In this document: positions 21,312 through 28,116 of the stretch, in pieces
How positions within the stretch are numbered: the first letter of the stretch is position 1
Layout of the letters: each line of letters starts with the position of its first letter
Translations under genes and position numbers: made by a program
Assembly (NCBI RefSeq): GCF_001659785.1
Contig: NZ_CP015961.1
Span: 3,286,001-3,350,000 of the forward strand
DNA: 64,000 bases
Origin: Dietzia timorensis
GTDB taxonomy: Bacteria; Actinomycetota; Actinomycetes; Mycobacteriales; Mycobacteriaceae
Direction: 5' to 3'
The notes under the pieces: model-generated
Told to the model about the DNA's origin: nothing
Databases searched by the model: none
What the model saw: only the letters and a program-made list of their open reading frames with translations

Positions 21312-22268
21312 CTACTTTGTGGGTGCGGGCTCTCGGGTGAGGGCCTCGTAGTGGAGCGCCTCGGACTCTACCGGGGTAAGCATCCCCAGCGAGCCGTGGA
21401 GGCGGCGGTTGTTGTACCAGTCGACCCAGCCGGCGGTCGCGAACTCGACGTCTGCGAGAGTCCGGAACGGCCCTGAGTGGAATATGGTGGTGCGGATACA
21501 CTCGGTCTTATAGAGACCGTTGATCGTCTCCATGAGCGCGTTATCGTAGGCGTCGCCGACGGTGCCGATTGACGGGGAGATGCCTTCGAGGGCGAGGTGC
21601 TCGGTCAGTCGAATCGCGGTGTACTGGGATCCTGCGTCGCTGTGATGGATCAAATCGCCAGGTGACACAGGGTTTCCCTCTCGATCTCGTTGCCAGAGCG
21701 CGATCCTCAGCGGAGTCATGACCAGGTCGACCTTCTTGCACGTGCTGGCGTGCCAGCCCACGATCCGCTGGGCAAACACGTCCACGACGAACGCGACATA
21801 GACGAATCCTGCCCAGGTGCGCACGTAAGTGAAGTCGGTGACCCACACACGGTTCGGCGCAGGGGCAGTGAAGTCGCGATTGAGCAGGTCAGCTGCCCGT
21901 TTCCCATTCGGGTCGGGGATCGTCGTGCGGAGCTTCTTGACGCGTCGCACGCCCTCGAGTCCGAGGGTGCGCATCGCCCGGTCCACCGCGCCCCGTGACG
22001 TGCCGGCCAGACCTTCCTGGCGGCGGAGCAGGGCGACCCACTTCCGCCGCCCGTACAAGCCCTCCGGTGTCATCTGGACCCGCCCGGTGACGGGGTTGAT
22101 CCTCCAGGCGAAGGTGCGGATCTTGTCCTCGACCTGGGCGTCTGTGACGGTTCGGGCAGCAATGTGGCCTGGCCGCTTCCAGGATCGGTAGGTGCGTGCA
22201 GCAATCCTCAGGCCTTGCTGGCGCAAGACACGGAGGATCGACTCGACTGCGAAACCTTCGGCTCTCAT
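21312..22268 (-). CDS. IS3-family transposase OrfB (DDE integrase)
   Basis: 318 residues by its own ATG. An HTH_21-like region (LYGRRKW) precedes an rve integrase core with the DDE acidic residues in WVTDFTYV, HHSDAGSQY and NALMETING, and ends WYNNRRLHGSL. In frame, the sequence stays open upstream (LICAFIDE before the ATG), so OrfB is probably made mainly as an OrfAB fusion by -1 frameshifting near the end of orfA. Confidence 0.9.
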   Translation of the reverse strand: MRAEGFAVESILRVLRQQGLRIAARTYRSWKRPGHIAARTVTDAQVEDKIRTFAWRINPVTGRVQMTPEGLYGRRKWVALLRRQEGLAGTSRGAVDRAMRTLGLEGVRRVKKLRTTIPDPNGKRAADLLNRDFTAPAPNRVWVTDFTYVRTWAGFVYVAFVVDVFAQRIVGWHASTCKKVDLVMTPLRIALWQRDREGNPVSPGDLIHHSDAGSQYTAIRLTEHLALEGISPSIGTVGDAYDNALMETINGLYKTECIRTTIFHSGPFRTLADVEFATAGWVDWYNNRRLHGSLGMLTPVESEALHYEALTREPAPTK

Positions 22269-23410: not shown

Positions 23411-24646
23411 GTGTCAGAGATCCAACCCACAACACAAATCATCGACCGCGAGCCCGGTCTCGGGGTAGCGATGGGGCTCCTCGCCCGCCGCTGCGGGAGC
23501 GCTCTGATGGCGGCGCTCCTGGCGTTCGGAATGGCGCAGCCTGCGGTCGCTGCCGCCCAACAGGGTGATCCCGGGTCGGCGGGATCGCTCGACGTGGCGG
23601 GCTCGTTACGAGCTCCCGACTGGGACTCGGTGCCGGCCGGCCCGCGCGAAGACGACTTCGGCACCGCCTTCCGTCGCTCACTGCTCAATCCGGCGATGCT
23701 TCCGGACGGGGTCAACGACTGGGACTGCACCCCGAGCCCCGAGCACCCCAACCCGGTCGTGCTTGTCCACGGGACGTGGAGCAACGCCTACACCATGTGG
23801 TCGGCGCTGGCGCCCGAGCTTGTCGAGGAGGGCTACTGCGTCTACGCCCTCAACTACGGCGATGAGAACCAGTCCCTCGTCGGACTCGTGCCGGGGCTAT
23901 ACGCATCCCGCGGGTTGGTCGAGTCCTCGACCGAGGTGGCGGCCTTCGTCGAACGGGTCCTCGACGAGACGGGGGCGTCGAAGGTCGACATGGTCGGGCA
24001 CTCGCAGGGCGGCACCCAGCTCCAGCTGTACATCCAGCGCCACGGCGGCGACCAGACGGTCGAGCGCATGGTGGGAGTCAACCCCAACACACATGGCACC
24101 TCGTTGCTAGGGATCGGCACTCTCGGATGGACGCTCGACGATGCCGGGTCGTTGGGCATCGGCTCGGTTCTAGGGTCGGCCAACGTGTCGGACCCAGGTC
24201 TGATGGCCACGGTCGGCCTGGTCATCGGTCCCGCCGGGGTTCAACAGGCCATCGGCTCCCCGGTGATCGAGGAGATGATCGACGCCGGTGATACCCGGCC
24301 AGGATTGGATTACACGATCATCACCTCGCGGTATGACGAGGTGGTGACGCCGTACCCCGGCCAGTTCCTCGTTGCGGGCCCGGGTGCCACGGTCCGGAAC
24401 ATCCTGTTGCAGGACGGATGCACCGAGGACCGGTCCGACCACCTGTCCGCCACCTACTCGCTGCGGGGCAAGGAACTCATCAAGCAAGGGCTGGATCCGG
24501 CGAGACGCGGGCAGCCCGTGCCCTGCGAGGTCGTGGTGCCCGGTGGCGGACAGGGCTGGCCGGGCGCCCCGGTCGGATCGGTCTCCCCCTCGTTGGCGGC
24601 GGTGGGTGGATCGGCCGCGTCGGTCACCGATGGGGAGGGGTCATGA
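23411..24646 (+). CDS. Secreted triacylglycerol lipase/esterase
   Basis: 411 residues. After a long polar leader comes a hydrophobic signal segment ending in an AVAAAQQ cleavage area (near residue 50). The hydrolase domain has VLVHGTWSNAY (oxyanion loop), the nucleophile motif GHSQGG near residue 199, Asp in RYDEVVTP and His in DRSDHLS near 355, all typical of class-2-like bacterial lipases. The tail is Gly/Pro/Ser-rich. The GTG at 23411 is chosen because GGAGGG (23401-23406) precedes it; an in-frame ATG at 23471 would give a more ordinary signal peptide. A perfect GlxR-type site upstream suggests carbon-source control. Confidence 0.85.
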   Translation: MSEIQPTTQIIDREPGLGVAMGLLARRCGSALMAALLAFGMAQPAVAAAQQGDPGSAGSLDVAGSLRAPDWDSVPAGPREDDFGTAFRRSLLNPAMLPDGVNDWDCTPSPEHPNPVVLVHGTWSNAYTMWSALAPELVEEGYCVYALNYGDENQSLVGLVPGLYASRGLVESSTEVAAFVERVLDETGASKVDMVGHSQGGTQLQLYIQRHGGDQTVERMVGVNPNTHGTSLLGIGTLGWTLDDAGSLGIGSVLGSANVSDPGLMATVGLVIGPAGVQQAIGSPVIEEMIDAGDTRPGLDYTIITSRYDEVVTPYPGQFLVAGPGATVRNILLQDGCTEDRSDHLSATYSLRGKELIKQGLDPARRGQPVPCEVVVPGGGQGWPGAPVGSVSPSLAAVGGSAASVTDGEGS

Positions 24647-24717
24647 GAAAAGCCAGCGGCGGATCACGCGACTCGTCCGGATCCCTCCGTGGTGCTCCCA
24701 TGAACTGATGGCTGTCT

Positions 24718-25285
24718 GCGATCACCGCGTCGGGGCGGGTGCGGGGTCGGCCCTTGCCGCGGCGTGGGACGTGGATGTCGGCCAGGACTTCGGCCGGCAT
24801 CGCGCCGTCGTTTCGTTGTCCACCGGTGATCACGTTCGCCAGAGGCCGGCCGCGCCCGTCGACGGCACTGTGGATCTTGGTGGTCAGCTCTCCTCGCGAG
24901 CGACCGATGTCATGACCTGCGGGTTCACAGTCCCGGAAGGGCCGGTTCTTGCGATTCGACCCTGCCCCCTGTGTCCTGCTCAGGGCGCTTTGCATTTCTG
25001 CCGTGCTGGTGAGCGCGGCAGATGGTGGCGTCGACCGAGACGTTCCAGTCGATCTTTCCAGCTGCGTCAGCATCGGCCAGGATCACGTGCAGGATGCGAT
25101 CCCAGGTGCCGTCCCGGGCGTAGCGGGCGTGACGCTTCCACACGGTCTGCCACGCACCGAAATCCTCCCGGGGCAGGTCCCGCCAGGGAATACCGGCGCG
25201 GTAGCGGTAGATGATCCCCTCGACGACCTTAGCCTTTCCATACGGCCACGGTCTCGCGGGTCACCGCTCAGCCATGGGAGACACG
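24718..25285 (-). pseudogene. Degenerate IS5-family transposase remnant
   Basis: Reading the minus strand with frame changes gives VVEGIIYRYRAGIPWRDLP, VWKRHARYARDGTWDRIL, then SVDATICRAHQHG and GHDIGRSRGELTTKIHSA to RPDAVIAD, the N-terminal and central parts of an IS5-family (IS427-like) transposase. At least two frameshifts separate the blocks, and the sequence stops matching at about 24718 (VIAD is followed by unrelated residues), so the C-terminus and one end are missing. It cannot transpose. Confidence 0.8.
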
Positions 25286-25617
25286 CCCTAGCTGATGGCG
25301 CTCTCTCGAAACTCGTCAAGATGTTCGACAGGACTTACTTGCAAAAACTCTCGAATCGTCAAGTCCAGACCAGCACGGATGGACGATCTTGACAACTTAA
25401 CTTGACGGGTTAACTTGCACCTTGAACACAAAGACACGTCTTCCCGCTGGTAAAACGTGTATTCAGCTTTTGTTTGATCGATATCGAATCTTGACAACTT
25501 GACAGATTGTCAGTCTGGACTGCATCTCGACACTCAATACTCACGGGACCAACCCTTGCACCAATTGTTCTAGTTAAGCTATAACTATTAATGTAATTAC
25601 TTCTTGGGGAGGCGCAC
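25286..25617. promoter_or_regulatory. AT-rich leader with iterated CTTGAC motifs before gntR
   Basis: No gene is seen in these 330 bases, which are clearly richer in A and T than the neighbourhood. CTTGAC or its complement occurs six times: 25315, 25358 (both as GTCAAG), 25388, 25401, 25490 and 25498. A 13-bp direct repeat ATCTTGACAACTT lies at 25386-25398 and 25488-25500, and TTAACTTG is repeated at about 25397 and 25410. Some copies could be -35 boxes; the clustering suggests an operator array. Confidence 0.5.
25571..25587. promoter_or_regulatory. Palindromic operator candidate before gntR
   Basis: TAGTTA-AGCTA-TAACTA has perfect 6-bp arms and lies 30 nt before the gntR start, overlapping a likely -10 region (TATAACT). 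This is the expected position for autoregulation by a YtrA-type GntR repressor. Confidence 0.5.
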
Positions 25618-26013
25618 ATGAGGTACTCGATAGACGAAGCCTCCTCCGTGCCGATTTATGAGCAACTGGTCAGACAGATCACCACGGCGATTGTCGACGG
25701 GACACTTCCGGCGCGAACCAAGATGCCGCCCGCGAAGGAACTCGCCGCGTCACTGGATATCAACGTGCACACGGTGCTGCACGCGTATCAAGACCTTCGG
25801 GATGCCGGGCTCGTCGAGCTTCGCCGCGGACGCGGAACCATCGTTTCCGCGCAGCACGAGGACTTCTCTACCCAAGCACGCAGCATTCACGCGGCTGTCG
25901 GTGAAGCGCTCGCCGCCGGCCTGCCACCCGCAGCTATCCGCGCCGCCGTCGACCATGCGCTAGTTGTGATGTCCGGGGAGGTTGTACCGCTGCTCGGTGG
26001 TGAGTCGGGGTGA
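25618..26013 (+). CDS. GntR/YtrA-family regulator, 3' end replaced by IS481
   Basis: 131 residues as it stands. The winged helix (residues about 10-75, with VPIYEQLVRQI and ELAASLDINVHTVLHAYQDL) is the short YtrA-type GntR form without a large effector domain. Codons up to Leu115 are native. From there the frame runs into the IS481 left end and stops by chance at 26013. Removing the IS restores a native end of 16 different residues and a TGA 4 nt before the DUF1648 gene. DNA binding may be kept, because only the C-terminal tail changed. GGGGAGG precedes the ATG. Confidence 0.85.
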   Translation: MRYSIDEASSVPIYEQLVRQITTAIVDGTLPARTKMPPAKELAASLDINVHTVLHAYQDLRDAGLVELRRGRGTIVSAQHEDFSTQARSIHAAVGEALAAGLPPAAIRAAVDHALVVMSGEVVPLLGGESG

Positions 26014-27073
26014 CAAGGGAAGACCTCCGGTAGTGGAGTGGAGCTGTCTAGTTCACCGCTTCAGGTCCCGGAGGTCTTCATGTCCCACGCTAACGCTGTC
26101 TTGACGCCACGCACACGATTGCGGCTGGCGAAGTTGGTCGTCGAGGACCATTGGACGTATTCAGCGGTGGCGAAAATGTTTATGGTCGCGCCGCGCACAG
26201 CGAAGAAGTGGGCTGATAGATACCGGGCCGAAGGCGCCTCGGGAATGGCCGATCGCAGCTCGCGTCCTCGCCGTAGCCCGGGCAAGACACCGCAGTCGGT
26301 CGTGCGTCGGATCGTGGCGTTGCGCTGGCGCAAGCGGCTCGGACCGGTCCAGATCGCTGGCCGGCTCGGCGTGCCTGCCTCGACCGTACATGCGGTGCTG
26401 GCGCGATGCCGGATCAACCGACTCACCTACATCGACCGGGTCACTGGGGAGCCGCTGCGCCGTTACGAGCACCCCTATCCGGGCTCGATGATCCACGTCG
26501 ACGTCACCAAGTTCGGCAACATCCCCGACGGCGGCGGACACAAGTTCGTCGGTCGCAAGCAGGGCCAGCAGAATTCGCTAGCAACAGCGCATCGAACGGG
26601 CGAGCGTGGGAAGGATTACCGCCCCCGAATCGGCACCGCCTACGTCCACACGGTCATCGATGACCACTCCCGGGTCGCCTACGCCGAGATCTGCTCTGAT
26701 GAGAAGGCCGAGACCGCGATCGGGGTCCTGCGCCGAGCGAGTGCATGGTTCGCCGAACGAGGCGTTGTGGTCGAACGAGTTCTCTCCGACAACGGCTCGT
26801 GTTACCGCGCCCATACCTGGCGAGATGCATGTGCTGACCTAGGTATCAAGCACAAGCGAACACGTCCCTACCGGCCACAGACCAACGGCAAGATCGAACG
26901 TTTCCACCGCACCTTGTCCGACGGCTGGGCCTACGCCCAGTTCTACGCGTCAACCGCACAACGCAACGCAGCCCTGCCCGAGTGGATGCACTTCTACAAT
27001 CATCACCGAGCACACTCCGCTATAGGAGGCCAACCCCCAGTCACCCGACTGACCAACCTCCCTGGACATCACA
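25965..27073 (+). mobile_element. IS481-family insertion sequence with target duplication
   Basis: The ends read inward as TGTGATGTCCGGGGAGGTTG (left) and TGTGATGTCCAGGGAGGTTG (right), differing at one of 20 positions. GCTAG flanks the element at 25959-25963 and 27074-27078 as a target duplication; a sixth base differs (T at left, A at right). It carries a single transposase and is inserted in the 3' end of gntR. The near-perfect ends point to a recent insertion. Confidence 0.9.
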
Positions 27074-27078
27074 GCTAG
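26080..27078 (+). CDS. IS481-family transposase
   Basis: 332 residues. An N-terminal helix-turn-helix (AVAKMFMVAPRTAKKWADRY) and a second one are followed by an rve/DDE core with acidic residues in MIHVDVTKFG, VIDDHSRVAY and NGKIERFHRTL. GGAGG lies 8 nt before the ATG at 26080. The last codons leave the element: the final Ser and the TAG stop (27076-27078) are formed from the duplicated target GCTAG, so the stop codon is supplied by the insertion site. Confidence 0.9.
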   Translation: MSHANAVLTPRTRLRLAKLVVEDHWTYSAVAKMFMVAPRTAKKWADRYRAEGASGMADRSSRPRRSPGKTPQSVVRRIVALRWRKRLGPVQIAGRLGVPASTVHAVLARCRINRLTYIDRVTGEPLRRYEHPYPGSMIHVDVTKFGNIPDGGGHKFVGRKQGQQNSLATAHRTGERGKDYRPRIGTAYVHTVIDDHSRVAYAEICSDEKAETAIGVLRRASAWFAERGVVVERVLSDNGSCYRAHTWRDACADLGIKHKRTRPYRPQTNGKIERFHRTLSDGWAYAQFYASTAQRNAALPEWMHFYNHHRAHSAIGGQPPVTRLTNLPGHHS

Positions 27079-27132
27079 ATCAAGGCGTGCCCCGAGCCGC
27101 AGAACGCCAGACATCACAGGAAGGCTGAGTCG

Positions 27133-28116
27133 ATGTCCGCTATGAGCAAGTACCCACCGCGCCTAAGGGGCCCGCTCCGCATTCACGTCGCGCTGTCGGT
27201 ATGCCTCGTCCCGTTCCTCCTCTCACTCTCATGCTTCGCCATCGCGCAGTCGTGGTACAACCAGCTGCCGGACTCGGTGGCAATTCACTTCGGTACCGGA
27301 GGCGAGCCGGATGACTGGATGGGAAAGAACGCCAACTACGCCTTCGATGCCATCTTTATGTTCGGTTTCAACGCTCTCAACCTCGGTCTCTCGTACTTCG
27401 GGCTGATGCGAGGACGGTCAGGGCAGGTTACCGGCGCCCTCTTGGCAGGCGCGGTCGGACTGGTGTCACCGTTGCTGCTCGCCACCCTCTATTTCCAGCT
27501 CGATGGAGCTGAGGCACATCTCGGCGGCAACGCCTTCCTCTTCGGACTCGCCGGCGCCATCGTCTGCGCCGGCGTGACGGCGCTGACTTTCCCCACCCAC
27601 GCAACGGAGCCCGAGAAGCCCAGCCACTCGGATCCTCGGCGCGCCCCGCGCGAGTCCCTACGTTCGGGCGAGAAAGCCGCATACTTCGGTGGTCAGAGTG
27701 GAAACCCGGCACTGCTCGGTTCGGTTGCCGCACTCATTCTCGGCTCGACAATTCTCGTGGCGTTCGTCGATTGGTGGGCGGTAGCGATCACGCTCGTCGC
27801 CGGCATCATCGCGATCCCGCTCATCGCATACCTCCGGGTTCGTATCGATCAGACCGCAGTGACGTGGGCGTTCGGATTCGGACTTCCCCGGGGGTCGATC
27901 GCGTTGAGCGATATCGAATCCGTCGAGGTGATCGACATCAATCCGATGGACTTCGGCGGCTGGGGGTACCGACTCCGTGCAGGCACCACAGGGTTGATCG
28001 TCCGAGGCGGACCCGGCATCCGCCTCAATCGCACGAGCGGCCGGTCCGTCGTGATCAGTCTCGCGGAGCCGAACGAAGCGGCGGAAACGGTCCGGCAGCT
28101 GCTCGCGCGAACCTAG
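27133..28116 (+). CDS. DUF1648-domain membrane protein
   Basis: 327 residues with about six membrane segments. The N-terminal DUF1648 region has the expected VAIHFGTGGEPDDWMGK (about residues 50-66), shared with SdpI-type immunity proteins and sensors. The C-terminal third is a soluble, PH-like beta domain (from about 235). In the reconstructed pre-insertion sequence it lay 4 nt behind gntR and would be translationally linked to it. A YtrA-type GntR gene followed by a DUF1648 gene is a common pairing, often in envelope-stress or bacteriocin-response loci. The exact role is unknown. Confidence 0.78.
   Translation: MSAMSKYPPRLRGPLRIHVALSVCLVPFLLSLSCFAIAQSWYNQLPDSVAIHFGTGGEPDDWMGKNANYAFDAIFMFGFNALNLGLSYFGLMRGRSGQVTGALLAGAVGLVSPLLLATLYFQLDGAEAHLGGNAFLFGLAGAIVCAGVTALTFPTHATEPEKPSHSDPRRAPRESLRSGEKAAYFGGQSGNPALLGSVAALILGSTILVAFVDWWAVAITLVAGIIAIPLIAYLRVRIDQTAVTWAFGFGLPRGSIALSDIESVEVIDINPMDFGGWGYRLRAGTTGLIVRGGPGIRLNRTSGRSVVISLAEPNEAAETVRQLLART

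Follow-up and report, generated by a model that had tools for sequence, protein, structure and literature searches.

What becomes of a two-gene operon when an insertion sequence (IS) comes to lie between its start codons, and what becomes of the IS itself, are the questions raised by a locus in Dietzia timorensis, where an element of the IS481 family separates the gene for a GntR-family regulator (gntR) from the gene for a DUF1648 membrane protein. The locus is part of a window, i.e. the whole stretch of DNA analysed, of 64,000 nucleotides (nt) (assembly GCF_001659785.1, contig NZ_CP015961.1, positions 3,286,001 to 3,350,000 of the forward strand), and positions below are those of the window (Table 1). 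Taken as a whole, our data make it probable that an IS481 element entered a conserved operon by ordinary insertion, that the DUF1648 gene is now expressed by read-through and that the transposase is kept quiet.

The insertion itself is ordinary IS481 transposition, of a kind that is already known. Specifically, the transposase matches NCBIfam transpos_IS481 (NF033577; 352.6 bits, cut-off 224) and has the Pfam domains rve and LZ_Tnp_IS481, and the near-perfect 20-bp inverted ends reported in the initial annotation at 25965 and 27073 were found again as the TGT...ACA terminal inverted repeats of the family, matching at 19 of 20 positions. The 6-bp NCTAGN target duplication, another family trait, is present with five of six bases identical. 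Five full-length copies are present in the genome, which is a single contig of 3.6 Mb; all lie on NCTAGN, and perfect 6-bp duplications flank four of them, the window copy (GCTAGT/GCTAGA) being the exception; the other four are 97-98% identical to the window copy, which suggests fairly recent transposition activity. The transposase gene has no stop codon of its own, the TAG being taken from the right target copy in all five, and that the stop lies within the duplicated target is already in print for IS481. Among 29 transposase relatives fetched by protein similarity (relatives and other loci are numbered with an L), 21 have a TAG stop with a C in front of it, and in 10 the right end was placed two bases before the stop; these end calls are automatic and wrong for some relatives (e.g. 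L112 and L125), which were not used. Two relatives differ in their targets: L126 has GCTAAC on both flanks and L109 has TCTAGT/ACTAAT, with TAA as transposase stop, and perhaps the target can be CTAA with the stop still supplied.

Were gntR and the DUF1648 gene neighbours before the insertion? When the flanks are joined with one target copy the gntR frame stays open, as proposed initially, and closes after 131 codons at a TGA that lies 4 nt before the ATG at 27133, and the present gntR, which reads into the IS, does have the same length as the reconstructed one. GCTAG is indeed present on both sides; the duplication, taken to be five bases, comprises six. Since it is also imperfect, one base of the junction is ambiguous, and the idea of an exact reconstruction had to be given up: the old junction is recoverable to within one base. 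Moreover, CTAG is the element's own target, so the shared GCTAG carries little information on former adjacency, and a shared CTAG core, being expected at any two insertion sites, is not by itself proof that the flanks were neighbours. As to the frame, of the three in the right flank one stays open for 17 codons and closes before the ATG, another has 23 open codons and the third stops immediately; the in-frame continuation alone is roughly a one-in-three coincidence.

Conserved synteny in relatives is stronger support for the former coupling than either GCTAG or frame. A family search of 301 genomes gave DUF1648 relatives in 78 (E ≤ 1e-10, own genome included), and the gntR neighbourhood was examined at the 29 best-scoring of these, own locus excluded (L020-L048). 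A gntR relative lies directly beside the DUF1648 gene at 26 of the 29 loci, upstream as in the window at 21 and downstream at five; it is absent at L028, L039 and L043, and the L028 stretch ends at a contig end. A possible DUF1648 start is situated -14 to +8 nt from the gntR stop in 20 of the 21 same-order loci, with a 4-base overlap as the commonest arrangement. The coupling before insertion that the initial annotation had deduced is therefore well supported. Alternatively, the flanks were never neighbours, and recombination between two IS481 copies deleted the DNA between them and joined a gntR locus to a DUF1648 locus, as might be suspected from the window copy alone of the five having unlike 6-bp flanks. 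Single differences of this kind occur elsewhere, however, as in the IS481 relative L103 with unlike last bases (ACTAGT/ACTAGC); the lack of another full-length copy with unlike flanks argues against reciprocal exchange, and the gntR frame runs on through the right flank and stops just before the DUF1648 start. With the pair side by side at 26 of 29 related loci we rejected this origin, which we regard as highly improbable.

Within the genus the pair seems to be accessory, since neither gene has a close relative in the 22 other genomes searched. For DUF1648, nine of these had short, weak matches (≤44 residues) and 13 had none, and no other genus genome is among the matches at E ≤ 1e-10; GntR-family matches were present in all 22, the best at 1.8e-13 with 37% identity, and none is a close relative. 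The search for a named close relative gave partial matches at six loci (five Arthrobacter and one Sphingobacterium), which were not used, and a further search gave four Streptomyces plasmids (26-35%). In eight genus mates (L011 and L013-L019, with L051, L053, L056, L058, L061 and L064-L066) the weak DUF1648 match shares a contig with a GntR gene approximately 2.7-5.1 kb away; perhaps this is another GntR system, with further genes in the interval.

How, then, did the insertion affect the regulator? The element entered after residue 115 and changed the last 16 residues, and the GntR winged-helix domain (PF00392; residues 14-76, 50.7 bits) is intact. The related GntR proteins are 115-121 residues long in 23 of 26 cases (the other three 124, 130 and 135), where lengths and starts are estimates from the alignment start. 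Hence the 16 replaced residues correspond to a non-conserved tail, and the statement that the IS splits the operon, correct in that it lies between the two gene starts, is overstated because most related GntR proteins have their C-terminus close to the insertion point, a few residues away at most. Judging from its sequence, the GntR with the exchanged tail is probably still functional. Its closest known counterparts may be the YtrA-like short regulators encoded beside membrane-protein genes: it resembles these in length (about 115-131 residues), winged-helix GntR domain and short tail. A palindrome upstream of the regulator's own gene is common to part of the relatives. The window protein differs from the YtrA-like regulators in reaching no NCBIfam cut-off, i.e. 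no subfamily model scored above it, and in that the partner here is a DUF1648 protein.

The palindrome upstream of gntR in the window begins at position -51 and has one mismatch to GTTCTA-N7-TAGAAC; none of 500 shuffles, which preserve base composition only, was as good. With up to two mismatches, 12 of the 26 relatives have the motif, its first base 25-34 nt ahead of the aligned gntR start, a count that is partly circular because the motif was read from the same relatives, which does not apply to the window match. A scan of the own genome, with one mismatch allowed and the window's own base permitted, returned the window site and one other; the backwards control returned 4 and 3, and since it matches more often the other operator-like site means nothing. 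Autoregulation of the gntR operon is probably the simplest reading of a palindrome that lies over a possible -10.

The DUF1648 gene is probably expressed. Its open reading frame (ORF) is intact and preceded by a Shine-Dalgarno-like AGGAAGG (27118-27124, 8 nt before the ATG, identified by eye), and a scan of 25400-27300 detected no terminator-like site and no sigma-70-consensus promoter. On these grounds we think read-through expression more likely than silencing. It has to be considered that the insertion uncoupled the operon, such that GntR function was lost or, as the initial annotation supposed, DUF1648 was silenced or came to be driven by an IS promoter: the element does lie between both start codons, the last 16 GntR residues are changed, and IS-borne promoters are known in general. 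Given that the lost tail is not conserved, that the gntR and DUF1648 ORFs are both intact and that neither terminator nor consensus promoter appeared in the scanned region, such an uncoupling seems unlikely to us, and we favour read-through.

Would a transcript that reads through the IS also yield transposase? An inverted repeat precedes the transposase gene, with two perfectly complementary 12-base arms that enclose 37 bases, and the predicted leader fold (-47.3 kcal/mol) has a z-score of -4.2 with the 5' arm and of +1.33, nothing unusual, without it. Sixteen of the 29 transposase relatives have such arms against the start; the L104 sequence is cut, and for L107 and L129 there is no aligned start. 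The hairpin alignment comprises the window element (L001) and these 16, and relatives lacking the hairpin, L104 and the other four own copies were left out. Pairing is seen in 192 of 204 arm cells across the 17 elements, compared to 156 ± 5.6 when arms were re-dealt among elements (at most 180 in 2000 trials); L122 was framed two bases off in this test, which lowered its pairing (9/12). Moreover, RNAalifold identified changes on both sides at three of ten pairs. Positions -12 to -5 have a mean unpaired probability of 0.07 with the 5' arm and 0.377 without it, and the value is higher without the arm in 37 of 37 leaders, barely so in one; since 21 of these (L122 left out) came from the covariance-model matches described below and were kept for at least 9/10 pairing, they are not independent evidence. 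Together, structure prediction and paired changes indicate a predicted structure that covers the transposase ribosome-binding site.

With a covariance model of the 17 elements, matches were obtained in 121 of 394 genomes of the class (E ≤ 0.001). The own genome gave seven strong matches, all IS481-related (the five full copies and two partial relatives), and seven weaker ones that are antisense echoes of the same places. We checked 32 matches, i.e. 30 loci returned and the two partial copies of the own genome: IS481 transposase sequence is present in 28, and the hairpin (≥9/10 pairs) is situated at the aligned start in 24, of which L131, L132 and L138 were already in the hairpin alignment and L134 is an own copy. 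The others comprise four with a broken or partial transposase, for which no start could be aligned, and four that end within about 70 bases downstream of the motif. The same repeat could instead be a DNA site for binding of the transposase or a host repressor, as a dyad would show paired changes too and the model also scores on the antisense strand at each of the seven sites of the own genome. The spacer between the arms is nevertheless long and variable (35-39 nt in all of the 17 elements but the mis-framed L122, which has 32), and in the 16 relatives and the 24 checked model loci the Shine-Dalgarno-like stretch is covered by the 3' arm, which adjoins the start codon. We thus consider a DNA site rather doubtful and retain the RNA hairpin. 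The hairpin loop (26031-26067) has a second inner stem in the predicted fold and a CTAG that 7 of the other 16 aligned leaders share, and 11 of all 17 leaders have TGACA immediately before the 5' arm (counted by eye). As a guess, TGACA could be part of a -35 for a transcript starting in the loop; no good -10 is visible there, and the promoter scan detected none. An Rfam search of 25500-27300 gave no match.

The complete element, its flanks and borrowed stop, the intact GntR domain and DUF1648 ORF, the conserved pair, the palindrome and the hairpin are seen in the sequence; the regulatory steps of the mechanism that we propose are all inferred. A conserved, probably autoregulated gntR-DUF1648 operon would have been hit by IS481, co-oriented with transcription, at a CTAG in the end of gntR, with one later point mutation making the target duplication imperfect. 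The tail-swapped GntR would still bind the palindrome and repress the operon promoter, the transcript from this promoter would run through the IS into DUF1648, and DUF1648 would still be translated from its own Shine-Dalgarno sequence. In the read-through RNA the hairpin would hide the Shine-Dalgarno sequence of the transposase gene and block its translation, so that transposase would be made only from a transcript starting inside the loop, or only rarely. The net prediction is a quiet IS within a working, slightly altered operon.

Several observations weigh against this account. The target copies at the window element differ in their last base, and no IS-free allele was found in the 22 other genomes of the genus. 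Fourteen of the 26 relatives do not have GTTCTA-N7-TAGAAC at two mismatches, some of them having a different palindrome, of the GTTTGCAT..ATGCAAAC type. Without a consensus sigma-70 promoter in the scanned region, a transcription start in the loop stays a guess. Ten relatives with an aligned start (L113-L121 and the shorter match L127) have no hairpin there, hence the hairpin belongs to a subgroup, and the covariation term in RNAalifold is small (-0.74 of -16.72 kcal/mol). The hairpin-less L113-L121 represent a subgroup of IS481 transposases that are approximately 58-61% identical over nearly the full length; their element ends were not found by the script, and some are situated behind terminator-like hairpins.

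Table 1. Features of the gntR-IS481-DUF1648 locus, in window positions
Feature	Position	Strand	Remarks
Possible gntR operon promoter (TTGCAC, 18 nt, TATAAC)	25556..25585	+	inferred by eye; missed by a stricter consensus scan
Probable GntR operator, GTTCTA-N7-TATAAC	25567..25585	+	overlaps possible -10; one mismatch to GTTCTA-N7-TAGAAC
gntR as now read, 131 aa	25618..26013	+	host-coded to 25964, last part IS-coded; Pfam GntR 50.7 bits
Left copy of duplicated target, GCTAGT	25959..25964	+	
IS481-family element, 1109 bp, complete	25965..27073	+	one of five full-length copies in the genome
Left terminal inverted repeat	25965..25984	+	19/20 match to right end
5' arm of leader hairpin	26019..26030	+	inverted repeat, folding, arm pairing
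3' arm of leader hairpin	26068..26079	+	contains Shine-Dalgarno-like GGAGG; abuts transposase ATG
IS481 transposase gene	26080..27078	+	TAG stop 27076-27078 in right target copy, outside the IS
Right terminal inverted repeat	27054..27073	-	19/20 match to left end
Right copy of duplicated target, GCTAGA	27074..27079	+	
Stranded former 3' end of gntR	27080..27128	+	to TGA 27126-27128
DUF1648 membrane-protein gene, 327 aa	27133..28116	+	PF07853, 39.8 bits, cut-off 28.7

The surroundings of the operon constitute an IS-rich stretch, as upstream of gntR there are an IS3-family transposase gene (21312-22268), in a region 83% alike to an IS3 of a Citricoccus plasmid, and an IS5 remnant (24624-25230) that is 90% alike to Dietzia (Dietzia kunjamensis) plasmids. 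On the other side, 33 bases past the IS, the stranded gntR tail matches the IS terminal repeat at 11 of 12 bases (27107-27118), which may be chance or the trace of something older.

Is the position at a gene end peculiar to the window copy? All five own insertions are at or near gene 3' ends: three coincide exactly with the TAG stop of an ORF (306, 406 and 464 codons), another interrupts a 348-codon ORF nine codons from its end, and the fifth is the window copy in gntR. The interrupted host frames were judged by ORF length and eye, not homology, and there are competing ORFs, i.e. at L002 a 345-codon ORF in another frame ending on the TAG and at L003 a 557-codon ORF that spans the site on the opposite strand. 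CTAG is under-represented in the window (41 sites, 82 expected), and 12 of the 41 are already stop codons of gene-like ORFs, picked by length alone; three of five copies on stops of long ORFs therefore need no extra preference, and a preference of the IS for stop codons was rejected. Whether the window copy exemplifies a wider design is, in our estimation, evenly balanced: in a large actinobacterial IS481 subgroup the left hairpin would block read-through translation and the right target would supply the stop, and such elements could sit quietly in operons, at or near gene ends, with little disturbance. The window insertion shows that a CTAG-seeking element can reach a gene end in an operon and leave no obvious damage. 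What deserves further attention is the leader hairpin, as IS481 elements would, if it works as we propose, be protected from activation by host transcription.

Among known systems, IS10 and IS50 have a fold-back structure against outside transcription, and transposase translation of IS200 is reportedly controlled by 5' structure; all belong to other IS families. For IS481 we found no description of a leader hairpin in the open-access literature, which is a weak negative since most subscription journals lie outside it. ISPpu9, also of another family, is alike in that structure at the 5' end of the mRNA limits transposase translation, and differs in using a 244-nt leader and two small RNAs (PMC8450116), compared to the short arm pair against the start codon here. 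ISLxc2 (1105 bp) and ISLxx4 of Leifsonia xyli are IS481-family elements which, like the window element, have their stop codon inside the duplicated NCTAGN host site; the ISLxc2 transposase differs in being interrupted by an early in-frame stop, and the available part of the report does not mention a hairpin for either (PMC2516522). Finally, TnRErm46 (with ISRe46) of Rhodococcus equi illustrates that IS481 elements can carry resistance cargo, and it is a 6.9-kb cargo transposon, unlike the bare element here, with a leader hairpin unmentioned in the accessible part of that source (PMC6794481). As described there, it shares with the window element the family, the NCTAGN duplication and the right TAG that serves as transposase stop, and its insertion can preserve the TAG stop of the host gene on the left, a further likeness (PMC6794481).

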